From Inhella sp. (lineage in GTDB: Bacteria > Pseudomonadota > Gammaproteobacteria > Burkholderiales > Burkholderiaceae_C), in NCBI RefSeq assembly GCF_027532025.1, contig NZ_JAPZSY010000017.1, positions 1-64,000 of the forward strand: a stretch of DNA of 64,000 bases, given 5' to 3'. Numbering within the stretch: the first letter of the stretch is position 1; each line of letters opens with the position of its first letter. The notes under the pieces are model-generated. The model saw only the letters and a list, made by a program, of their open reading frames with translations. It did not search any database and was not told the origin of the DNA. Of this stretch, positions 23,517-37,908 are shown piece by piece. Made by a program: the position numbers and the translations under genes.

Positions 23517-24278
<762 letters not shown>

Positions 24279-24327
24279 GGACGAAGGCCAGCCCAGCGTC
24301 AGCGCCGGCCAGCCAGAGGAGGATCGA

Positions 24328-24576
24328 TCAGCGAATGGATTTGAGCTTCTTGCCCACACCGGACTTCTTCTTGACGGCCTTCTTCTGTGTCTTCTTGTGC
24401 GTCTTCTTGACCGTCGCCTTCTTCTTCACCGCATGGGCCTGCTTGGCCGCGGGCTTGGCGTGGATGGCGTGGGCGCCGCCTGTGCGCGATTGGGCTTGCG
24501 CGGAAACGGGGCTCAAGGCCGAGACCGACAAGGCCACGGCAAAGGACAGGAGGGTGGAGGACAGCAAACGGCTCAT
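24328..24576 (-). CDS. Small exported lysine-rich protein, function unknown
   Basis: An 82-residue protein between hisA and hisF. It has a clear signal peptide ([29 protein letters not shown]) followed by a mature part of about 50 residues made mostly of Lys, Ala, Thr and His ([21 protein letters not shown]), strongly basic. A GAGAG-type ribosome site precedes the ATG. It could bind nucleic acid, lipopolysaccharide or peptidoglycan, but nothing in the sequence decides this. It interrupts an otherwise standard hisA-hisF pair. Confidence 0.72.
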
Positions 24577-24603
24577 GGTGGCTCTCAGTGGGTCGAACAG
24601 GTT

Positions 24604-25344
24604 TCAGGAGCGCAGCGCGTCGGCCCGGGCCTGGGCATCGGCCAAGTCGAGCGCGCCGGTGTAGATCGCCTTGCCGCAAATGACGCCGCTGATGCCTTCG
24701 TCTTCCACCTTGCACAGGGCTTCGATATCGGCCCAGCCCTTGAGGCCGCCGCTGGCCACCACGGGAATGGTCAGGGCCTGAGCCAGCTTGACCGTGGCCT
24801 CGATGTTGATGCCGCTGAGCATCCCGTCGCGACCGATGTCGGTGTAGATCACGCCTTCGATGCCGTAGTCCTCGAACTTCTTGGCCAGGTCCACGACCTC
24901 GTGGCCAGAGAGCTTGCTCCAGCCGTCGGTGGCCACCTTGCCGTCTTTCGCGTCCAGGCCCACCCAGATGTGGCCGCCAAAGGCCGTGCAAGCGTCGCGG
25001 ATGAAGCCGGGGTTCTTCACCGCTGCCGTGCCCACGATGACGGCGCTGATGCCGTCGTCGAGGTAGCGCTCGATGGTGTCGAGGTCGCGGATGCCGCCGC
25101 CCAACTGCACCGGGATCTCATCGCCCACTTCCTTGAGGATGGCCTTTACCGCCGCCTCGTTGACCGGCTTGCCCGCGAAGGCGCCGTTCAGGTCGACGAG
25201 GTGCAAGCGACGCGCGCCCGCGTCCAGCCAGCGGCGGGCCATGGCCGCAGGGTCTTCGCCGAAGGTGGTGGAGGCGTTCATGTCGCCCTGTTGAAGGCGC
25301 ACGCAATGGCCGTCTTTGAGGTCGATGGCGGGGATCAGCAGCAT
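24604..25344 (-). CDS. hisA: ProFAR isomerase (phosphoribosylformimino-AICAR-phosphate isomerase)
   Basis: Fourth step of histidine synthesis, an Amadori rearrangement. The 246-residue TIM barrel starts [20 protein letters not shown] with the catalytic Asp in IDLKDG. The second Asp is in YTDIGRDGM. The first phosphate loop is GGGIRD and the second ASGGLKG. It lies 94 nt downstream of hisH; that spacer carries a C/G-rich hairpin. Confidence 0.97.
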
Positions 25345-25395
25345 GGTGAAGAAGCGTTGCGAAGAAGCGGGCGCAGGGCCACCCCAGGCCCGCGT

Positions 25396-25414
25396 GCGCC
25401 CCCTTGGGGGGTGG
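25396..25414. repeat. GC-rich hairpin in the hisH-hisA spacer
   Basis: GCGCCCCCTTGGGGGGTGG forms a CCCCC/GGGGG stem with a TT loop. A closely similar element lies in the murA-hisG spacer at 37909. Both look like copies of a short dispersed intergenic hairpin; there is no T-tract, so a terminator role is not evident. Confidence 0.5.
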
Positions 25415-25438
25415 CGACCGGCAGGGAGACTGGGGGCC

Positions 25439-26089
25439 TCATGGATTCCAGGTTAAGAAGTTTCGGTAAAGACGGAGCCCGTCAGCGGCGCTCTTTTCCG
25501 GGTGGAATTGCGTGGCAAAAATGGTATCGCGTGCGATGGCACAGGCAAACGCGTCGCCGTAGGTGGTGGTGGCGGCCACATGATGGCTCTGGGCCGGCAC
25601 CGCATGGAAGCTGTGCACGAAGTAGAAGTGGCTGCCGCTGGCCACGCCGGCCCACACGGGGTGGGGTCGGGCGATGTCGACGCGGTTCCAGCCCATTTGC
25701 GGCACCTTGAAGCGGCTGCCGTCGGGCTGCAGGCGGCCCTCCAGCCGGAAGCGCTTCACCTCGCCCGGGAACAGGCCCAGGCCCGGGGTGTCTTGCTCTT
25801 CGCTGCGCTGCAGCAGCATCTGCATGCCCACGCACACGCCCATCAGCGGCTTGCCGTTCGCCACCTCGTCCAACACCGCCTGCTGGGCGCCGCTGTCGGC
25901 GAAGTGGGCCATGCAATCGCGCATGGCGCCTTGGCCGGGCAGCACGATGCGGTCGGCATCGCGCACCTGCTGCGGGTCGTGACCGACGACCACCCTGACG
26001 CCGGTGTCGGCCGAGGCCGCCTGCACGGCTTGGGCCACGCTGCGGAGATTGCCCATGCCGTAATCGAGCACGAGCACGGTCTTGGTCAC
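25439..26089 (-). CDS. hisH: Imidazole glycerol phosphate synthase, glutaminase subunit
   Basis: A class I glutamine amidotransferase that feeds ammonia to HisF. The 216-residue protein starts at a GTG giving (M)[20 protein letters not shown] and overlaps the hisB stop by GTGA. The catalytic triad is visible: Cys in [10 protein letters not shown] and His/Glu in QFHPEKS. The oxyanion-strand motif LPGQGAM is also present. The extra ORF-track residues before the GTG come from hisB in another frame. Confidence 0.96.
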
Positions 26090-26676
26090 AAGCTGCCTTT
26101 CGTGCTGGGGATGGTGCCGGCCGCGCGCGGGTCGGGCGTGACGGCCATGCGCAGCGCGCGGGCGAAGGCCTTGAAGATCGTCTCGCACTGGTGGTGCGCG
26201 TTGTGGCCCTTCAGGTTGTCGATGTGCAGGCTCACGCCAGCGTGGTTCACGAAGCCCTGGAAGAACTCGAACACCAGCTGCGTGTCCAGTTGGCCGATGC
26301 TGCCGGCCGTGAAGGTCACGTCCATGTGCAGACCCGGGCGGCCGGAGCAATCCAGCACCACGCGGCTCAGGGCTTCGTCGAGCGGCACGTAGGCGTGGCC
26401 GTAGCGGGTGATGCCGCGCTTGTCGCCCAAGGCCTGCGCGAAAGCCTGGCCCAGCGTGATGCCCACGTCTTCCACCGTGTGGTGGCCGTCGATGTGCAGG
26501 TCGCCCTTGGCATCGATCGACAGGTCGATCAGGCCGTGGCGGGCGATCTGGTCGAGCATGTGGTCGAAGAAACCGATGCCGGTGACGAAATGCGCCTGGC
26601 CGGTGCCATCGAGGTTCAGTTCGACGCGAATCTGCGTCTCGGCGGTGTTGCGCTGGACGGTGGCGGTGCGGGTCAT
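26086..26676 (-). CDS. hisB: Imidazoleglycerol-phosphate dehydratase
   Basis: Sixth step of histidine synthesis, a Mn-dependent dehydration. The 196-residue monofunctional form starts [24 protein letters not shown]. Metal-binding motifs are [24 protein letters not shown] and, in the second half, [19 protein letters not shown]. There is no HisN phosphatase domain. It overlaps hisC and hisH by 4 nt each. Confidence 0.97.
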
Positions 26677-27746
26677 GTCAAAGCCTGGATGAGCTGGGAA
26701 GTTTCGTCGGGCGTGCCCACGGTCAGGCGCAGGCAGTTTGTCAGCATCGGGTGCATCGCGCTCACGTTCTTCACCAAGATGCCCTTGGCCTTCAGAAGGG
26801 CAAAGGTGGCGGCGGCATCGGGGAAGCGGGCCAGCACCATGTTGGCTTGGCTGGGAAAGGGCGTGACCCCCGGCAGGGCTTGCAGCGCCGTGAACAAGCG
26901 CTCGCGCTGGGCGCGGATCTGGGCGGCTTGGCGGGCGTACTCGGCCTCGTGCTCCAGCGCGAACAGCGCGGCCTCGGTGTTGAGCACGCTGACGTTGAAG
27001 GGCGGGCGCAGTTTTTCCACCTCGGCGACCAAGGCGGCGTCGCCCATCAGGTAGCCGATGCGCACCCCGGCCAGGCCGAACTTGCTCATGGTGCGCATCA
27101 CCAGCACGTGGGGCTGGCGCAGGCGGTGCAGCGAGTCGTTCGCGGCGAAGGGCTGGTAGGCCTCGTCCATCACCACCAAGCCCGGGTTGGTGCCGTCCAG
27201 GGCCATGGCCTCCACCAGCGCGTCGATGGTGGCCGCGTCCCACAGCGTGCCCGTGGGGTTGTTGGGGTAGGCCAGCCACAGCAGCGCCGGCTTTTCGGCC
27301 GCGATGGCGGCGAGCATGGCCTCGCGGTCGAGCTGGAAGTCGTCGGCCCGGCAGGGCACGCCCACGAAGCGCACGCCCAGCAACTGCGCGCTCATCGCGT
27401 ACATGACGAAGCTGGGCAGCGGGCTCATCACGCAAGCGCCCGGCTTGGCGATGGCCTGGGTGAGCAGGCTGATCAGTTCGTCGGAGCCGTTGCCCAGCAT
27501 CAGCGCGCCCCCAGCCGGCAGTCGGGCATGGCGGGCCAGCGCGCTGCGCAGGACTTCGGTGCGCTCGGCCGGGTAGCGGTTCAGGGCCACGGCACCCAGG
27601 CGCTGGCCGAGTTCGGCCTGCAGCGCCGCGGGCAGCGGGAAGGGGTTCTCCATCACGTCCAGCTTCACCAAGCCGGCGGCGGGCTGGACGGCGTAGGCGT
27701 GGAGGGCGCGTACGTCGTCGCGGAAGACATCAAGCGGCGAATTCAT
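26673..27746 (-). CDS. hisC: Histidinol-phosphate aminotransferase
   Basis: A PLP-dependent class I/II aminotransferase, 357 residues. Motifs include [12 protein letters not shown] near the N-terminus, YPNNPTG, the [10 protein letters not shown] aspartate, and the PLP lysine in [17 protein letters not shown]. The start codon lies 17 nt inside the end of the upstream PIN-toxin gene, so hisC is probably translated in coupling with a toxin-antitoxin operon. In the standard Burkholderiales order hisD would be upstream instead. Confidence 0.96.
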
Positions 27747-28188
27747 CGAGCAGTTCCGGGCCTTGCAGGAAGGGGTTGACGATCCGCAGGCTGTCGATGG
27801 TTTGGCCGTGCTGGAGGTCTTCGGTCAGCAGGTGGGTGCAGGCCTGCTGCTGGGCGGCGGCCACCACCAGGGCGTCCCAGTAGCTCAGGCCCCAGCGGCT
27901 TTCCACGGCCCAGGCCGATTCGACCGTGGCGTGGTCCGTCTGCCAGGGCTGCCAGAGCTGGTAGCGGCGCACCTCGGCACGCGCATCGCCGGCCGACAGT
28001 GCGCTGGAAAACTTCTTGCGAGCGTTCCAGTAGAACTCGTGCAGCACCTGGTTGCTGACGCGGCCGCAGCGCTGGGCCCAGCAGGCGCGCAGCCAGGCGC
28101 GGGCGGCGTCGCGCTTGACCGGCTCGCGGTCGTCAAAGGCGTAGAGCAGGACGTTGGTGTCGACGAACACCAGAACCGGCGTGCTCAT
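27730..28188 (-). CDS. PIN-domain toxin, VapC-like
   Basis: A 152-residue predicted ribonuclease. It has the PIN hallmark acidic residues: Asp in VFVDTNVLLYAFD, Glu in NQVLHEFYWNARKK, Asp in GLSYWDALVVAAA and a final acidic residue in LLTEDLQHG. VapC toxins cut tRNA or rRNA when free of antitoxin. The start overlaps the antitoxin by ATGA and the 3' end overlaps hisC by 17 nt. Its product could instead be a non-toxic PIN nuclease, but the genetic layout fits a toxin. Confidence 0.88.
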   Translation of the reverse strand: MSTPVLVFVDTNVLLYAFDDREPVKRDAARAWLRACWAQRCGRVSNQVLHEFYWNARKKFSSALSAGDARAEVRRYQLWQPWQTDHATVESAWAVESRWGLSYWDALVVAAAQQQACTHLLTEDLQHGQTIDSLRIVNPFLQGPELLDEFAA

Positions 28189-28418
28189 CGGGCGTTACGG
28201 TCGTAGATCTCGTCGCGGCTGAGGTAACGACCGCTGGACTCGCCGAAGCTCTTGAACTCCAAGGCCTCACGCATGGCGCGCTCGTAAGCGTCGTCATGGC
28301 GCATCTTGTCGGCCAGCATGTCGCCCACCAGGCGCGACACGCTGGTGTTGCGGCGGGCCGCTTCCATCCGCGCCCAGTCGGCGACGGCGTCTTCCATGGT
28401 GACAGTGACGTTGCGCAT
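28185..28418 (-). CDS. Ribbon-helix-helix antitoxin, VapB-like
   Basis: A 77-residue partner of the PIN toxin. The start MRNVTVTMEDAVADWARMEAARRNTSVSRLVGDML has the short beta strand followed by two helices of CopG/Arc-type DNA-binding antitoxins. The C-terminal part (EFKSFGESSGRYLSRDEIYD) probably wraps the toxin. Three palindromic sites immediately upstream fit self-repression. The longer ORF-track version runs back through these operator sites and is unlikely. Confidence 0.85.
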   Translation of the reverse strand: MRNVTVTMEDAVADWARMEAARRNTSVSRLVGDMLADKMRHDDAYERAMREALEFKSFGESSGRYLSRDEIYDRNAR

Positions 28419-28430
28419 GGCCTGAGTATG

Positions 28431-28475
28431 CACGAAGTTCGTGGAACACGAAGTTCGTGCTGCACGATCTTCGTG
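28431..28475 (-). promoter_or_regulatory. Triple palindromic operator of the toxin-antitoxin operon
   Basis: Three 13-bp palindromes stand in a row with 3-nt spacers: CACGAAGTTCGTG (28431-28443), the identical CACGAAGTTCGTG (28447-28459) and CACGATCTTCGTG (28463-28475). The period is 16 bp, and the first copy ends 13 nt upstream of the antitoxin ATG. The arrangement suits cooperative binding of RHH antitoxin dimers. Confidence 0.82.
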
Positions 28476-28525: not shown

Positions 28526-29740
28526 ATGAGCCATGCCCTGCACATCTGGGAGCGACCGCTGCCCACCTCTCTGGCCGACGCCCAAGCCGCCAAGTCCCGG
28601 TTGAGCGCTGAAAGCGGGCCCGACCCCGAGGGCTTTGCGCATTTGCGCAAGGCACTGACCAGCGCGCTGGCCGACGAGCCCGCGTTGGCCGGCATGCGCT
28701 TTGAAGGGCTGGACGATGGGTTGCTCACCGGCCCGGTGCGCAGGGTGGGCGTGCCGCAGCCATTCAGCGCCGAGCTGGTGCCGCTGTTGGTGGCCGGGGC
28801 CTTGGCCCTGGGCTTGGCGGTGTACGACGAGCAGGCCGGCGTTTGCTACCACCCACTGCGTCACAAGCTGACGCTGGATGGCCAGCAGCCGATCCGGCCG
28901 AGCGACTTGCTGCCGCGGCCCTTGAAAGCTGCTGGCGTTTGGCTGGAGGCCCAGCCAAAGCCCCAAGAGCTGGGCCCTGACGAGCAGGCCCGCGCCTGGA
29001 TCGCACAGCGGCGGCGCCTGCCGGCTTTCCAGGACGCCCTACTGGCCAAGGGCCCTCAAGGGCTCGAGCCCATGGACAGCGACAACCTGTGGATGCAGGC
29101 CCGCGTGCTGCGCCATCTGGGCCCCTGGTTCACGGCCCAAGGCTTTGTTGAACGCTCGCGCAGTGCCGAAGCCACCGAGTTCGCCCGGCTCACCGCAGGC
29201 GGCCTCCAGTCCTGGAGCCTGAGTCATTTTTTGCAGGGCAGCACGCCCAGCGGCACAGGGCCCGGCTTCAGCGTGCGCTGTGCGATCCGACCTTGGCTGC
29301 CCGAGATGCTGGACGGACCGGGCAACGCGTTCCCGCTGGTGCCGCCACCGCATGAGCCGCAGAGTTGGGGCCACGGCCGCCCCACAAGCGAGACGCGGGT
29401 GCTGGTGCGCACCCGCGCCGAACTCGAGCGCGTGTTGGCCGCCTTCAGGCCCAGCCTGGACACGGGGCTGCTGCCCCTGCTCGAGGCCTGTCGAACGCCG
29501 GAAGGGATCTTGGCGCTTGCGCGCCAGACGGGCACGCCCCACCCCTTGGTGCCCACCGCAGCACTGAAAAAACTGGCCCACTGGGAAGGCGCGCCCGATC
29601 ACCAGGCCTTGTTGCAGCAACTCCACCAGCGTGACCGCGCGCTGGGGGGCCACCCGGCCAACCTCATTTGGCCCGCTTGCAGGCTACGGGCGCTGCCCCA
29701 GGCTTTCGGCACGATGCGGCCGCGGGCGCCTGGGCCTTAG
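28526..29740 (+). CDS. Unrecognised 404-residue protein
   Basis: I do not recognise this gene. The start is set at ATG 28526 (MSHALHIWERPLPTSLADAQ); the ORF track begins inside the operator region. No signal peptide or strong membrane helix is present apart from a short hydrophobic run (LVPLLVAGALALGLAVYDE). The N-terminal third looks like a small alpha/beta domain. A later stretch (VLRHLGPWFTAQGFVERSRSAEATEFARL) faintly recalls DUF4304-type domains. TATGCT about 10 nt before the ATG could be a -10 box. It is divergent from the antitoxin operon and its 3' end overlaps the photolyase-like gene by 4 nt. Confidence 0.6.
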   Translation: MSHALHIWERPLPTSLADAQAAKSRLSAESGPDPEGFAHLRKALTSALADEPALAGMRFEGLDDGLLTGPVRRVGVPQPFSAELVPLLVAGALALGLAVYDEQAGVCYHPLRHKLTLDGQQPIRPSDLLPRPLKAAGVWLEAQPKPQELGPDEQARAWIAQRRRLPAFQDALLAKGPQGLEPMDSDNLWMQARVLRHLGPWFTAQGFVERSRSAEATEFARLTAGGLQSWSLSHFLQGSTPSGTGPGFSVRCAIRPWLPEMLDGPGNAFPLVPPPHEPQSWGHGRPTSETRVLVRTRAELERVLAAFRPSLDTGLLPLLEACRTPEGILALARQTGTPHPLVPTAALKKLAHWEGAPDHQALLQQLHQRDRALGGHPANLIWPACRLRALPQAFGTMRPRAPGP

Positions 29741-31185
29741 GCGCCGGCCAGCAGTTCATCGACTTGGCGCAGGCGCCGCGTACCCAAGCGCCAGTAAGCG
29801 CTGAAGGAGCTGGCCACTGGCGCGTCGGGGCGGTCCAGCTCGGGGAACAGTGAATCGGCCGGCCGATCAAGCAAAGCGCGCAAGGGCTCGGGAAGGCCTG
29901 GATGGTCGAAACCCGACGTGTGAGCGCCCGCCAACCGCTCAACCAAGCTCTCAGCCGGGCCCACCCACTGCCAGGGCGTGAGGGCCTTCAGGCGCTGCGC
30001 AACGGCCGCCCAGCGCTCGGCGCGCCAAGCGATGTGTGCCCACGCCTCCAGCGGCCACAGCGCAACAACGGCATCGAAGCCGGGCGGCGGGTCGCCAAGG
30101 GCCCAGGGGTGGGCCAACCACACGCGTCGGCCGTGCTGGTCCGGGCCCCAATTGGCTTGGACGGTCGAGGCGGGGGGCGTGTGGCTCACCATGGGTTCGG
30201 CCACCGCCTCGCCGCCGCGCCCGGCTGGCAGCGGGGGCTTGCCGCCCCGGGCGCGGGCTTCGTGCACGTCGTAGCCGGTGTCCAGCACCGAGCCGGGCAC
30301 CTGCCAATCGGCGGGGGCGAACCGGGCCACGTTGTCGGCGTTGAACAGGTAAGGCTTGTGGCTGCCCGTGCCGGCCACCCACTGCCAGGAGCCGTGGTTG
30401 GGGCCCACGTCGCCGTCCATCAGCCAGCTCAACATCCAATCGGCCCCGGCGCGCCAGTGCACGCGGCGGCCATGCACCAGGTAGCTGGCCAGCCACAGGC
30501 GGGCGTGGTTGTGCAGCCAGCCGGTGGTGGCCAGGGTGCGCACGGCCTGGTCGATGACGGCCAGGCCGGTGCGGGCCTCGCGCACGTCGGCAGGCACATC
30601 CAGGAGTCTGCGCGGCAGAAGGTCAGGCTGTCGCCGAGATCCCGGGGGCGACAGGCTAGGCGCTGGCGACGCCGCGTGGCGGGCCACGTCAGGAGCCAGC
30701 AACGACGCTTGTCGCCCCCGGGGCTCGGCCCGAAGGGTGGCCCCTGGATCCGGCGCAAGCGTTGTCGCTCCTTCTTTTGGACACGCGTCCACGGCGGCGT
30801 CGCTCCGAGCCTGCGCCGGCCCAGGGGCCACGCCAGCCTGACCTTCTGCCGCGCAGACTCCTGCGGCGTACTCGCCCTCGGGCAGCGGGCCTTCGTGCCG
30901 GCTGTGCCACACGGTGTCGGGCTCGCGCATCAAGCGGTGCTGGAAGAAGCCGCGCCAGGCCAGTTCCTGCACCCAGCGGTGGTCCAGCGGCAGCGGCGTG
31001 CGGGCGTGCACCGCGGCCAAGGCCTCGCGCAGGCTCAAGGCGCCATGCACGATCCAGGGCGACAGGCCCGACACCGCGCCTTGCAGGTGGTTGCGGGTGG
31101 CGGCGTAAGCGGCAGCGTCCACGCGGGCCAGGCGTTCGCGGGCGGTGGCGGGGCTCAGGTCCAGATCCACGCTGAGCGTCATCAC
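29737..31185 (-). CDS. Photolyase-like FAD-binding domain protein lacking the antenna domain, with in-frame insertion
   Basis: A 482-residue protein resembling only the helical FAD-binding half of photolyases and cryptochromes. Conserved blocks are WVQELAWRGFFQHRL, DQAVRTLATTGWLHNHARLWLASYLVHGRRVHWRAGADWML, DGDVGPNHGSWQWVAGTGSHKPY and FNADNVARF. The usual N-terminal Rossmann/antenna domain is absent. Residues about 108-195 are foreign to the family: they are the translation of a 263-bp element with perfect inverted ends that keeps the frame open between GEYAA and DVPADVREA. Whether the protein still works is uncertain. It is coupled to the cryptochrome gene upstream by ATGA. Confidence 0.85.
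   Translation of the reverse strand: MMTLSVDLDLSPATARERLARVDAAAYAATRNHLQGAVSGLSPWIVHGALSLREALAAVHARTPLPLDHRWVQELAWRGFFQHRLMREPDTVWHSRHEGPLPEGEYAAGVCAAEGQAGVAPGPAQARSDAAVDACPKEGATTLAPDPGATLRAEPRGRQASLLAPDVARHAASPAPSLSPPGSRRQPDLLPRRLLDVPADVREARTGLAVIDQAVRTLATTGWLHNHARLWLASYLVHGRRVHWRAGADWMLSWLMDGDVGPNHGSWQWVAGTGSHKPYLFNADNVARFAPADWQVPGSVLDTGYDVHEARARGGKPPLPAGRGGEAVAEPMVSHTPPASTVQANWGPDQHGRRVWLAHPWALGDPPPGFDAVVALWPLEAWAHIAWRAERWAAVAQRLKALTPWQWVGPAESLVERLAGAHTSGFDHPGLPEPLRALLDRPADSLFPELDRPDAPVASSFSAYWRLGTRRLRQVDELLAGA
30601..30863. mobile_element. MITE-like element, 263 bp, with perfect 30-bp terminal inverted repeats
   Basis: The sequence starting CAGGAGTCTGCGCGGCAGAA at 30601-30630 recurs as its exact reverse complement at 30834-30863 (ending CTGCCGCGCAGACTCCTG). 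The interior contains a second nested inverted pair (CCGAGATCCCGGGGGCGA at about 30634 and TCGCCCCCGGGGCTCGG at about 30710). No transposase is encoded. I see no clear target-site duplication. It splits a photolyase-like gene without a stop or frameshift. Confidence 0.85.
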
Positions 31186-32756
31186 AGGCCACTCCCTCCG
31201 GCCTTCCAGGCTTCGGCCTGCAGGCGAATGACCTTGCGCTCCGCCTCATCCATGCGGGCCAGGTTTTTCACTTGCAGCGCCAATCGTGGGTGCTTGGCAA
31301 AGCGGGCCTCGTGGCGCAGCAGGAAGTCCCAGTACAGCGTCGTGTACGGGCAGGCGTCGGGCCCCGTGCGCTTGGCGGGCTTGAAGCGGCAGCCTTGGCA
31401 GGCCGCGCCGCCGCTCATGCGCTGGATGTACTGGCCGCTGGCGATGTAGGGCTTGCTGGCCATGGCGCCGAAGGGCGCGGGCCGGCCGTCGGGCAGCGTG
31501 CCGTCGGCGAACTGGCTCATGCCCAGGGTGTTGGGCAGTTCCACCCACTCCACGGCGTCCACGTACACCGCCAGGTACCACTCGTGCACGCGTTGCGGTC
31601 GCACGCCCAGCAGCAGCGCGTACAGGCCGGTCACCATCAGGCGCTGGATGTGGTGGGCGTAACCGTGGCGCAGCGTCTGGCCGATGGCGTCGCGCAGGCA
31701 GGCCATGCCCACCTCGCCCGTCCAGTACCAAGCCGGCAGCTCGGCCTGCGCGTCGAGCGCGTTGCGCTCGGCGTAGTCGGGCATCTGCGTCCAGTAGATG
31801 CCGCGCACGTACTCGCGCCAGCCCAAGATCTGCCGGATGAAGCCCTCGGCCGCGGCCAGGGGCACGTGGCCGGCGCGGTGCGCGGCTTCGGCCTTGGCCA
31901 CCACCTCGCGCGGGGTGATGAGCTTGAGGTTCAGGCTGCTGGCCAGCAGGCTGTGCCAGAGAAAGGGCTCGCCCGGCCACATCGCGTCTTGCCACAGGCC
32001 GAACTGCGGCAGGCGGTGCTCGATGAAGTCGTCCAGCGCCTGCAGGGCCTGCGCGCGGGTGACGGGCCAGGCGAAGTCGTCGAGCTGCCCCGGGTGGGCG
32101 GCGAAGCGATCGCGCACCAGGGCCAGCACGCCGGCCGTGCGCGCGTCGGGCGCGAAGCGCGGCGCAGGGGGCACCAAGCCCGGGCCTTGCGGCCCGAAGG
32201 CCTCGCGGTTCTCGGCATCAAAGTTCCACTGCCCACCCAGGGGTTCGCCAGCCTCGTCCAACAGCACACGGTGCCTGGCGCGCTGCTCCCGGTAGAAGTA
32301 CTCCATGCGAAGCTGCTTGCGGCCCTTCGTGTGGGCGGCGAATTCGCGCACGGTGGCAAAGAAGTGGCGGTCGTCGCGCAGGTCCAGCGGCAAGCCCAAG
32401 TCCTTCGCCACGCCGCGCAAGGCCTGCAGCACGCGCCAGTCGCCGGGGGCGGTCATCACCAAGGTTTGGGGCTGCAGCGCGCGAATGTCGCGCGCCAGGG
32501 CCTCGGCCAGGCTGGGCGCGGCCTGCGCGTCGTCCAGGTGCTGGTAGTGCAGCGGCCAGCCGCGCTCGCGCAAGGACTGCGCAAAGGCGCGCATGGCCGC
32601 CAGGAACAGCGCCGTGCGCGGCTGGCTGCTCCAGACATGCGTGCTCTCTTCGGCCACCTCGGCCATCCACACGGCGTCTTGCGCGGTGTCGAAGTCGTCG
32701 AAGGCGCTGGCGGCTTCGTCGAGCTGGTCGCCAAGAACAAGAACAAGATGCCTCAT
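31182..32756 (-). CDS. FeS-BCP type cryptochrome/(6-4) photolyase family protein
   Basis: A 524-residue protein of the bacterial iron-sulfur cryptochrome/photolyase family, related to Agrobacterium PhrB. The start is MRHLVLVLGDQLDEAASAF, a family opening. The FAD-binding part has FIRQILGWREYVRGIYW and the long VELPNTLGMSQFADG. Four cysteines fit the [4Fe-4S] site: one in GMACLRDAIG and three in CQGCRFKPAKRTGPDACPY. These enzymes repair (6-4) lesions or act as light sensors. It overlaps the DUF2256 gene upstream and the FAD-domain gene downstream by 4 nt each. Confidence 0.93.
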   Translation of the reverse strand: MRHLVLVLGDQLDEAASAFDDFDTAQDAVWMAEVAEESTHVWSSQPRTALFLAAMRAFAQSLRERGWPLHYQHLDDAQAAPSLAEALARDIRALQPQTLVMTAPGDWRVLQALRGVAKDLGLPLDLRDDRHFFATVREFAAHTKGRKQLRMEYFYREQRARHRVLLDEAGEPLGGQWNFDAENREAFGPQGPGLVPPAPRFAPDARTAGVLALVRDRFAAHPGQLDDFAWPVTRAQALQALDDFIEHRLPQFGLWQDAMWPGEPFLWHSLLASSLNLKLITPREVVAKAEAAHRAGHVPLAAAEGFIRQILGWREYVRGIYWTQMPDYAERNALDAQAELPAWYWTGEVGMACLRDAIGQTLRHGYAHHIQRLMVTGLYALLLGVRPQRVHEWYLAVYVDAVEWVELPNTLGMSQFADGTLPDGRPAPFGAMASKPYIASGQYIQRMSGGAACQGCRFKPAKRTGPDACPYTTLYWDFLLRHEARFAKHPRLALQVKNLARMDEAERKVIRLQAEAWKAGGSGL

Positions 32757-32953
32757 CGTGCGGCCTTGGCTTCGCGGCGGCAGCGCTCGCTGCAGAACTT
32801 CACCTCGCTCCAGGTCTTGGCCCAGGCCTTGCGCCAAGTCATCTCACGCCCGCAGTGCGCGCAGGGCTTGCTTGGCAGCGCCTGCTTGTTGCCCCGGAAC
32901 CCAGAAACGGCAGTTGACCGCTTCCCTCCGCCTGCCAGTTTTCGCTCCATCAT
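32753..32953 (-). CDS. DUF2256 small zinc-finger-like protein
   Basis: A 66-residue protein with a C-terminal four-cysteine motif, PCAHCGREMTWRKAWAKTW followed by KFCSERCRR. This matches the DUF2256 pattern, a short protein often encoded beside photolyase/cryptochrome genes and of unknown role. Two ATG codons (MM) start the ORF. It overlaps the cryptochrome gene by 4 nt, so the two are probably translated together. Confidence 0.9.
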   Translation of the reverse strand: MMERKLAGGGKRSTAVSGFRGNKQALPSKPCAHCGREMTWRKAWAKTWSEVKFCSERCRREAKAAR

Positions 32954-33140
32954 CGGATTGAGCCCACGGCGCTGTTCACCGCTTGGGCGACACCGCTACA
33001 CAGCCGATTGCACCGCGCTGCAGCACGCTGGCGGCGTTGCTCGTCCTTGCGGGCAAGAGCCCGCGGCGTCCTCGCGCCTTGCCAGCGCACCGCATCACGG
33101 CGCACTCGGCCGTGTCCAACTGCCGCTTCTGGGTTGAAGC

Positions 33141-34721
33141 TCAAAACAACTCTCCCTGGGGCGAAGGGGGTGACGGCGTCGCCGGTGCCGGCGCTGGTTT
33201 GGCGCGCCGTGATTTCGTCGTGCTCGGCAGCCCGCTCTTGCGCGAGCCGTGCTTCTCTTGCACGCCATCGGCCTGCGCGCGGGCCTCGGGCCGGCGGCGC
33301 TCGGTCCACATCGCGTCCTTGGCCGCGCGGATGGCGCTGCGCTCGTCCACCAGCGGTGCCGGGTAGTGCGTGCCGATGACGCAGCCGCTGGCCCGCTGCG
33401 TGGCCGCATCCATGCGCCAGGGCGTGGCCAAGTGAGGCAACGGCACGCCGGCCAGCTCGGGCACCCAGCGGCGGATGAACACCCCGTCGGGGTCTTGGTC
33501 CAGCGCCTGCTTGGTGGGCGAGTAAATGCGCAGGGTGTTGATGCCCGTGGTGCCCGATTGCATCTGCATCTGGCTCCAGTGGATGCCGGCTTCGAAGTCC
33601 AGGAACTGCCGCGCCAGGTGCAGGCCCGTGGGCCGCCAGTGCAGCCACAGCGGGTAGCTCGCCACGCTGACCAGCATGGCGCGCATGCGGAAGTTCAGCC
33701 AGCCGGTGGCCTTGAGGCTGCGCATGCAGGCGTCCACCATCGGCCAGCCGGTGTGGCCCGTGGCCCAGGCGTGGAAGCGGGCCTGGTCGGACTCGGTGAA
33801 GGGCGCGGTGTCGCCCGGGCGCAGGCCGTCGAAGGCCGGCACGAAGGCGCGGCGCTCGATGGCCGGCTCGTCCTCCAGCTTCTGCATGAAGTGGCAGTGC
33901 CAGCGCAGGCGCCCGGCAAAGCCGCGCAGCGCGTAAGCCCAACTGCGCTCGCCCAAAGCCTGCGCCTCGGCGATGCGCGCCTCGGTGGCCTGGTGTGCGC
34001 GGCGCAGGCTCAGGGTGCCCCAGGCCAGGTGGGGCGAGAGGCGGCTGCAGCCGGCTTCGGCGCTCAGCGGGCTGCTCATCGCGCGACGGTAGTCGTGGCC
34101 GCGGCGGGTCAGGAAGTCGTCCAGCGTGGCCAGCGCGGCGCGCTCGCCCCCCACCTGGCCGGCTCGCGCGTCCGGCGCCACGCCCAGGGCCTCGGGCGTG
34201 GGCAGCGGCTCGGTGGGGAAGTCGCCTGCGGGCGACCAACCATCGGGCACCGGCGCCTCGTCGGCGTCCATGCGCGCCTGCCATTGTCCGGCCCAGCCGT
34301 TGCGGCTGCGCAGGCGCCGCACCACGCCGTGCTGCGGCAGCTCGGTCCACGCGACCCCGGCCTGTCGGCACCACGCCGCCACGGCCAGGTCGCGCGCGTA
34401 GGTCCAACCCGGCCCGGTTTCTTCGTGGCTCAGCAAGTGCGTCACCCCCAGCTCGCGCTGCAGCGCGGCCAGGCCCTCCACCGCCGGCGCCACGCGCACG
34501 TGCAGCGGCAGGCCGCGCCGATGCAGCCGCAAGCGCAGGCCCTGCAAGCTTTGCAGCACGAAACGCAGGTGCTGGGGGTCGAACTCCGGCGAGGCCAACC
34601 ATGCGGGCTCGATGAAGAACACCGCCGCCGTGCGCTCGAAGGCGGCCGCCCGCGCCAGCGGGGCGTGGTCGTGCAAGCGCAGGTCGCGCTTCAGCCAAAC
34701 GAGTGCGGTGGACGCGGCCAT
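33141..34721 (-). CDS. Cryptochrome/deoxyribodipyrimidine photolyase (class I type)
   Basis: A 526-residue flavoprotein that probably reverses cyclobutane pyrimidine dimers in blue light. The N-terminal antenna domain starts MAASTALVWLKRDLRLHDHAPL. The FAD-binding half has SRLSPHLAWGTLSLRRAHQA, TGHTGWPMVDACMRSLKATGWLNFRMRAMLVS, HWSQMQMQSGTTGINTLRIYSP and a C-terminal VPELAGVP. About 45 extra residues at the C-terminus are Lys/Arg/Pro/Ser-rich and look unstructured. The gene lies about 190 bp upstream of the DUF2256 gene, in the same orientation. Confidence 0.92.
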   Translation of the reverse strand: MAASTALVWLKRDLRLHDHAPLARAAAFERTAAVFFIEPAWLASPEFDPQHLRFVLQSLQGLRLRLHRRGLPLHVRVAPAVEGLAALQRELGVTHLLSHEETGPGWTYARDLAVAAWCRQAGVAWTELPQHGVVRRLRSRNGWAGQWQARMDADEAPVPDGWSPAGDFPTEPLPTPEALGVAPDARAGQVGGERAALATLDDFLTRRGHDYRRAMSSPLSAEAGCSRLSPHLAWGTLSLRRAHQATEARIAEAQALGERSWAYALRGFAGRLRWHCHFMQKLEDEPAIERRAFVPAFDGLRPGDTAPFTESDQARFHAWATGHTGWPMVDACMRSLKATGWLNFRMRAMLVSVASYPLWLHWRPTGLHLARQFLDFEAGIHWSQMQMQSGTTGINTLRIYSPTKQALDQDPDGVFIRRWVPELAGVPLPHLATPWRMDAATQRASGCVIGTHYPAPLVDERSAIRAAKDAMWTERRRPEARAQADGVQEKHGSRKSGLPSTTKSRRAKPAPAPATPSPPSPQGELF

Positions 34722-35828: not shown

Positions 35829-37145
35829 TCATCCGCCGCTGGCGTCCACCCGCATCGCCGCCGACCGGGCATGCGCCTGCAGGCCCTCGCCCTGCGCCAG
35901 CGTGTCGGCCACCGGCCCCAGCACCTGGGCGCCGCGGTGGCTGATGTCGATCAGGCTGCTGCGCTTGACAAAGTCGTACACGCCCAGGGGCGAGCTGAAG
36001 CGGGCGGTGCCACTGGTGGGCAGCACGTGGTTGGGGCCGGCGCAGTAGTCGCCCAAGGACTCCGAGGCGTAGGTGCCCAGGAAGATGGCGCCGGCGTGCT
36101 TCAGGTGCGGCAGCCACTGGCGCGGGGCCGTGCTGCTCACCTCCAAGTGCTCGGGCGCGATGCGGTTGCTGACCGCGCAGGCCTCTTCCATGCTGCGCGT
36201 GTGGATCAGGCCGCCGCGGCCCTCCAGGCTGGCGCGGATGACGGCGGCGCGCGGCATGTCGGGCAGCAGGCGGTTCATCGAGGCCTCGACGGCGTCGAGG
36301 TAGGCGGCGTCGGGGCACAGCAGGATGCTTTGCGCCAGCTCGTCGTGCTCGGCCTGGCTGAACAGGTCCATGGCCACCCAGTCGGGCGGCGCGCTGCCGT
36401 CGGCCAGCACCAGGATCTCGCTCGGGCCGGCGATCATGTCGATGCCCACCTGCCCGAACACGCGGCGCTTGGCCGCGGCCACGTAGGCGTTGCCGGGGCC
36501 GGTGATCTTGTCCACGCGCGGGATGGTGGCCGTGCCGTAGGCCAGGGCGGCCACGGCCTGCGCGCCGCCAATCGTGAAGACCTGGGCCACGCCGGCCAGG
36601 TGCGCGGCGGCCAGCACCAGGGCGTTCTTTTCTCCGCGGGGCGTGGGCACGACCATGACGATCTGGCCCACGCCGGCCACCTGCGCGGGGATGGCGTTCA
36701 TCAGCACCGAGCTGGGGTAGGCCGCTTTGCCACCGGGCACGTACAGGCCCACGCGGTCCAACGGGGTGACCTGCTGGCCCAGGCGGTTGCCGTCTTCGTC
36801 CTCGAACTCGAAGCCTTGGCAGGTGACCTCGAACTGGCGCTGGTGGTAGCGGCGCACGCGCTCGGCGGCCACCTGCAGGGCCTGGCGCTGCACCTCGGGC
36901 AGGCCGTCGAAGGCGGCCTTCAGCTCGGCCGGGGGGATGGCCAAGTCGGCCACCGAGGCGGCTTGCACGCCGTCGAACTTGTGCGTCAGCGCCAACACCG
37001 TGGCGTCGCCGTCGCGGCGCACGTCGGCAATGATTTTCGCGACCGTGGTCTCGATGCCGGCGTCGGTCTCCTCGCTCCAATGCAGCAGCTGCTCGAGCTC
37101 GGCGTCGAACGTGGCGGCGGTGGTGGCGAGGCGGCGGATCTTCAT
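35829..37145 (-). CDS. hisD: Histidinol dehydrogenase
   Basis: Zn-dependent enzyme that makes histidine from histidinol in two NAD-linked oxidations. The 438-residue protein has [23 protein letters not shown], the NAD-binding [13 protein letters not shown], the zinc/catalytic segment [13 protein letters not shown], the catalytic Glu-His pair in [10 protein letters not shown] and the final zinc ligands near [14 protein letters not shown] and HRG. It is 4 nt downstream of hisG. Downstream is non-coding DNA and then accessory genes rather than hisC. Confidence 0.97.
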
Positions 37146-37149
37146 GACT

Positions 37150-37836
37150 TCAGGCGTTGGCAGTGGAGGCAGCGAGGGCGCGGCGGAAGGCGTCCATCAG
37201 CGGTTGCAGGCGCGCGCGCTTGAGCTTGGCGGCGCCGGGGTTGACGACGAGGTGGGCCGACACGGGGAGGATGTCTTCGACCTCGACGAGGTGGTTGGCC
37301 TTGAGCGTGCTGCCGGTGCTGACCAGGTCGACGATGGCGTCGGCCAGGCCGGTCAGCGGGGCGAGCTCCATCGAGCCGTAGAGCTTGATGAGGTCGACGT
37401 GCACGCCTTTGTCGGCGAAGTGCTGGCGGGCCAACTGGGTGTACTTGGTGGCCACGCGGATGCGCGCGCCTTGGCGCACGGCGGCGGCGTAGTCGAAGTC
37501 GGCGCGGGTGGCCACGCTCAGGCGGCAGCGGGCCAGCCGCAAGTCGATGGGGCGCAGCAGCGAAGCGCCGCCCTCCCCGCCGCCGTAGGGCCCCAGCTCG
37601 TGCTCCAGCACCACGTCCAAGCCGGCCACGCCGACGTCGGCGCCGCCGAACTGCACGTAGGTCGGCACGTCGCTGGCGCGCACCAGCACCACGCGCACGT
37701 CGGGCTGGTTGGTGGGCAGGATGAGCTTGCGCGTCTTCTCGGGGTCTTCCAAGACCTCGATGCCCGCCGCACGCAGCAGCGGCAGCGTGTCGTCAAAGAT
37801 GCGGCCCTTGCTCAGGGCCAATGTCAATTGAGTCAT
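37150..37836 (-). CDS. hisG: ATP phosphoribosyltransferase, short form
   Basis: First enzyme of histidine synthesis, 228 residues from the ATG giving [21 protein letters not shown]. The PRPP-binding loop is in [18 protein letters not shown]. The C-terminal ACT-like regulatory domain of long HisG is absent, so this form needs the regulatory subunit HisZ, which is not in the window. It follows murA after a 115-bp spacer carrying GC-rich hairpins. Confidence 0.96.
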
Positions 37837-37908
37837 GGGGTGAACCAGCAATCCAGGCAGTCAGCCCCCAAGCGGCCACCGCGGAACCGGCTTGGCCGGG
37901 CCGCCAGC

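Follow-up and report, generated by a model that had tools for sequence, protein, structure and literature searches.

A putative VapBC operator that probably also controls histidine genes in Inhella sp. and related Burkholderiales

Structure of the locus

In Inhella sp. three short palindromes lie just before a VapBC-like toxin-antitoxin pair, and genes of histidine biosynthesis follow directly behind the pair. Which of these genes does the palindrome array serve? We analyzed the first 64,000 nucleotides of contig NZ_JAPZSY010000017.1, here called the window, together with related loci. The relevant features of the window were:

23517..26672, minus strand: hisB, hisH, hisA and hisF, continuing in that order
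26673..27746, minus strand: hisC, overlapping the end of vapC by 17 nt
27730..28188, minus strand: vapC-like PIN toxin gene, 152 aa, starting 4 nt inside vapB
28185..28418, minus strand: vapB-like antitoxin gene, 77 aa, with a predicted ribbon-helix-helix (RHH) N-terminus
28425..28430, minus strand: CATACT, a weak -10-like hexamer (4 of 6) abutting P3, candidate promoter element
28431..28443, minus strand: palindrome P3, CACGAACTTCGTG, ending 12 nt before the vapB ATG
28447..28459, minus strand: palindrome P2, CACGAACTTCGTG
28463..28475, minus strand: palindrome P1, CACGAAGATCGTG in antitoxin sense, the promoter-distal copy in the window
28526..29740, plus strand: divergent orphan gene, 404 aa, between a photolyase gene and the array
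35829..37145, minus strand: hisD, about 7.4 kb upstream of vapB
37150-37851: hisG

Read on the plus strand, CACGAAGTTCGTG occupies 28431-28443 and 28447-28459, and CACGATCTTCGTG, which contains one mismatched pair, occupies 28463-28475. The coordinates confirmed the three 13-bp palindromes with 3-nt spacers and a 16-bp period that the first-pass annotation had described at 28431-28475; the period is strict and the spacers are GAA and CTG. The distance to the antitoxin ATG (28418) had been given as 13 nt and was measured here as 12 nt. In 100 dinucleotide-shuffled versions of the window the number of 13-mer matches never reached the observed one, and two sites in 16-bp register occurred in none of 1399 random 200-bp control windows drawn from the fetched loci.

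A search of the genome for the 13-mer had been proposed earlier, as scattered copies would speak against an operator. The motif was not scattered. Zero-mismatch 13-mers elsewhere in the 3.5-Mb genome were single copies only, located on contigs C53 and C94 and both within open reading frames. A pattern search of the whole 3.5-Mb genome revealed no second array.

The interval between hisD/hisG and vapB is filled by photolyase-type genes (29737-34721, minus strand), which part hisGD from vapBC-hisCBHAF in this genome, and by the one opposite-strand orphan gene. Additionally, a Lys/Ala-rich ORF of 82 aa with a signal-like start was found between hisA and hisF (24328-24576, minus strand).

The toxin and the antitoxin

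The antitoxin gene is located directly upstream of the toxin gene, with a 4-nt overlap in the window and in most relatives. For the toxin, the earlier designation of the pair as VapBC-like was borne out by Pfam and by the predicted fold. The window VapC contained a PIN domain (PF01850, E 3.6e-13, above the cut-off), and its AlphaFold model (pLDDT 94) had Foldseek matches including the VapC structures 5x3t and 5wz4. By sequence and fold, the nearest solved structure was PcrIIC1, a PIN protein belonging to a Cas9 complex (8wmm).

The acidic residues D10, E51, D105 and D124 were all present in the window VapC. Over 81 loci D10 was found in 80, D105 in 78, E or D at position 51 in 79 and D124 in 58, and VapC was mostly intact. 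Loci of the Roseateles/Mitsuaria group (L117, L123, L125, L126, L129 and others) carried E51 replaced by D and D124 replaced by A, S or T; judged from these substitutions, the nuclease activity of VapC may be weaker in this group.

The RHH assignment of the antitoxin made in the first-pass annotation stood by way of its relatives but found no direct match for the window protein. The profile search with the window VapB returned no RHH model and DUF6364 alone, below the cut-off, whereas free-standing VapB relatives matched RHH_1 (2.1e-4) and FitA-like_RHH (4.4e-4). The monomer model of the window VapB was a long helix which did not show the RHH fold, and Foldseek gave no match for it. From the profiles of the relatives an RHH fold is likely. 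A PADLOC search for a defence system was without a match. A mobile element was considered as well and rejected, as the window VapB and one free-standing relative had no homologue among 72,556 plasmids.

Conservation among relatives

A search for the antitoxin in 84,980 species genomes led to 80 loci, all of Burkholderiales type; as these relatives were gathered by VapB similarity, the set cannot reveal how often VapB was lost. VapC followed by HisC was found in all 80 and in the window, usually with an overlap (gaps of -17 to 28 nt, with the exception of L060). In L060 (3867-4160) the HisC match lacked the first 258 residues, which represents either a truncated hisC after vapC in a metagenome-assembled genome or an assembly fault. 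Among 200 relatives selected by kinship the antitoxin was present in 43 genomes of 38 genera, with one match each, and in whole genomes HisC adjoined VapBC in 34 of 34 same-family loci examined. The position of vapBC and its coupling with the his genes are hence conserved across species. Judged from these genomes, the link to the histidine operon is fixed in dozens of related bacteria; it had no part in the earlier reading of the locus.

The end of hisD was at most 200 nt from vapB in 40 of the 62 loci where hisD was found. In L080, L089 and L099 HisC was only ~33% identical to that of the window and still had the 4-nt overlap with vapC; from this, hisC seems to have been replaced in place.

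Palindromic sites were present in 80/80 relatives, and in 79 of them two or three copies stood in exact 16-bp register. The remaining locus, L081, had one copy at the scan threshold, and degenerate copies were visible in its sequence. In each of the 80 relatives, and also among free-standing homologues from other families (see below), the array and VapB were conserved together, which strongly supports the first-pass view of the array as a putative operator of the downstream antitoxin.

CACGAA and CACTGA are the half-site sequences. In each palindrome the CAC core and the GTG core are spaced at 10 bp, roughly one turn of the helix, a geometry that would accommodate two RHH dimers on the same face of the DNA. 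Over 199 sites, positions 4/10 were G/C in 149, G/A in 21 and T/C in 18, and never T/A. Such one-sided changes indicate independent half-sites, as expected for separate protein subunits.

For vapB, dN/dS was mostly below 0.1 in close pairs, and for vapC it was about that of hisC. Residues 1-48 of VapB had a mean identity of 89% between loci, the tail 42%. Mantel tests of VapB/VapC against HisB/HisC distances gave positive, moderate correlations (r 0.27 to 0.50), and since these are only moderate, they do not prove purely vertical descent.

Origin of the module

From genomes without the antitoxin we fetched 20 his regions, 19 of them of the same family. Here hisB was used as marker, the aminotransferase family search for hisC being too broad. 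The palindrome was present in 0/20 of these regions. In 15 of them (15/19 of the same family) hisD and hisC were direct neighbours. VapB homologues outside the family, with about 45 to 50% identity, belonged to free-standing vapBC pairs whose flanks contained no HisC. Most of these pairs retained paired sites of like design, e.g. CACGAACCCAGTG-TTA-CACTGGATTCGTG in L143.

Because his operons without vapBC lack the palindrome and free vapBC pairs carry it, the sites travel with vapB and not with his. The polarity suggested by this distribution thus runs from a free module to a captured one. Given the adjacency of hisD and hisC without vapBC and the free-standing pairs in other families, the module was most likely inserted at the hisD/hisC junction in Burkholderiales and then retained.

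Promoter elements within the array

In about half of the relatives the array was fused to a sigma-70 promoter, a layout here named type A. TTGACA abutted P1 in 35 of 37 three-copy relatives, the other two having TTGACG and CTGACA, and at 25 loci the TGA within TTGACA was the stop codon of hisD. In type A relatives a -10 hexamer (e.g. GAAAAT, GAGAAT or TAGAGT) lay within P2, exactly 17 bp after TTGACA. The mean match to TATAAT was 3.9 of 6 for the P2 hexamer and 2.0 for the corresponding hexamers of P1 and P3, so that P2 deviates from the ideal palindrome toward a -10 element. In a second layout there were two palindromes and, in most cases, a TTANNCT-like sequence behind them that may be an extended -10.

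The window fitted neither layout cleanly. It has three copies, but GTGGCA replaces TTGACA, the P2 hexamer is GAACTT, and a consensus scan found no consensus promoter at the array. Type A relatives carry a palindromic operator overlapping a promoter; the window carries the operator without a recognisable promoter. Compared with type A, the consensus promoter is eroded in the window. In I. crocodyli, whose VapB is 96% identical to that of the window, TTGACA is kept and directly follows a photolyase gene. On this comparison, the orphan gene of the window has probably displaced the -35.

Proposed mechanism and alternatives

We consider the array to be the operator of a VapBC module captured in the his operon, where VapB(C) would autorepress a promoter that also transcribes hisCBHAF (probability about 0.8). 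VapB dimers, with VapC as the likely co-repressor, would sit on the CACGAA half-sites, and bound VapB(C) would block the promoter built into the same palindromes. A single transcript would cover vapB-vapC-hisC-hisB-hisH-hisA-hisF, so that the operator would set both the level of VapB and the supply of the downstream histidine enzymes. Were VapB lost under stress, expression of vapBC and of these enzymes would rise. From the arrangement of genes and sites we infer VapB binding, repression, co-transcription and release upon VapB degradation; control of the downstream histidine genes by the operator is probable. More tentative, with the odds somewhat against it, is the further proposal that domestication has turned VapBC into a regulator of histidine biosynthesis, such that degradation of VapB, e.g. 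in amino acid starvation, leads to stronger vapBC-hisCBHAF transcription.

The array might instead regulate vapBC alone. In that case transcription of hisC to hisF would mainly start at the hisG promoter and read through, or start at promoters within vapC, and the module would be a passive hitch-hiker. The overlap of VapC and HisC could be due to compaction alone, and read-through is possible at the 40 of 62 loci with a near hisD end; where hisD adjoins, it may even dominate. In the window and in several relatives, however, the gene before the array has the opposite orientation, and hisD is either far away or missing from the flanking sequence. Transcription of hisCBHAF at these loci therefore requires a promoter at the array or within vapBC. 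We therefore regard regulation of vapBC alone as unlikely.

The genes upstream of the array varied widely among loci and several were on the opposite strand, among them genes for a chemotaxis receptor (L087), a beta-lactamase-like protein (L116) and an acetyltransferase (L059). At such loci no promoter region is closer to vapBC-hisCBHAF than the array. L083 has another VapBC-like pair at this place (2223-2974), its antitoxin being of MazE type; the pair lies immediately upstream of the array in opposite orientation.

This variety also bears on the earlier suggestion that the array could additionally control the divergent gene at 28526. The gene does start at a distance of 50 bp and is directed away from the array. 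Nevertheless, neither Pfam nor NCBIfam gave a match for its 404-aa product, 100 relatives contained no homologue, and the gene was absent from the 80 other loci, while the array was conserved regardless. The array has no conserved divergent partner, and by its distribution the gene at 28526 is an orphan insertion of this genome. With upstream neighbours differing so widely, control of this gene could only be a local side effect; the suggestion found no support, and a bidirectional array is a poorer explanation than regulation of vapBC alone.

A regulator other than VapB, e.g. a histidine-responsive repressor, could be imagined on the array, as VapB is a deduced binding partner. The palindromes were missing in same-family his operons without vapBC and present with vapBC without his in other families, which makes such a regulator very improbable. 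Least credible of all is a role of the palindromes as attenuator or terminator hairpins in the his mRNA. Although the array contains one terminator-like match and each site is self-complementary, substitutions affect one side of a site only, positions 4/10 show no compensatory double change, the hairpins would have very small loops, no attenuator family of Rfam was found between 22 and 42 kb in the window, and the exact 16-bp register across loci better fits DNA binding.

Comparison with known systems

Type II VapBC modules with RHH antitoxins include FitAB of Neisseria and VapBC3 and VapBC30 of M. tuberculosis (PMC4803016). The module described here shares with these a small antitoxin gene in first position, an overlapping PIN toxin gene and a palindromic operator over the promoter. 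It differs in the two or three 13-mers at a 16-bp period, in the overlap of the toxin gene with hisC and in its fixed place inside a biosynthetic operon of many genera.

Palindromic toxin-antitoxin operators overlapping a promoter are known (PMC4803016). The YefM-YoeB operator of E. coli consists of a long and a short palindrome, one overlapping the -10 (PMC4803016). Several palindromes upstream of the antitoxin, one with the -10, and conservation across genomes are common to both systems. YefM-YoeB differs in antitoxin fold, in its 12-bp spacing and in having no biosynthetic genes downstream.

Acidovorax citrulli belongs to the same order as the bacterium of the window and also carries VapBC. 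According to the accessible part of the report, this module is active and its transcription is induced by amino acid starvation (PMC4701950). The same part describes it as horizontally acquired, confined to group II strains and closest to Xanthomonas, and mentions no link to his genes (PMC4701950). Internal secondary promoters are also known from the enterobacterial his operon (reviewed in PMC10138114), which resembles our case in having secondary promoters inside the operon and differs in having neither toxin-antitoxin genes nor a toxin-antitoxin operator. A report of toxin-antitoxin genes near scattered his genes (PMC3948609) concerned a RelBE pair elsewhere, in another arrangement. In the open-access literature, most subscription papers being outside this scope, we found no account of a VapBC module that is fixed in a his operon and whose operator serves as an internal promoter.

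The role of chromosomal toxin-antitoxin modules is still debated. The vapBC genes described here are neither scattered nor strain-specific; they are single-copy and occupy an identical position within the operon across dozens of genera. They are under purifying selection near that of hisC, and their operator is fused to a promoter that apparently feeds an essential amino acid pathway. A specific physiological role for a chromosomal module thereby becomes directly testable. In this way such a module could become difficult to lose, because deleting it would also delete the promoter of the genes downstream. If domestication were true, a toxin-antitoxin operator would act as a stress-responsive promoter of a housekeeping biosynthetic operon.

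In L182 (6381-8082), a locus of another family (genome G403), a distant vapBC-like pair was located right after hisF, with TTGACACGATCTCCGCGTTACACGAAGATCGTG before the pair. This is possibly an independent association with a his operon.
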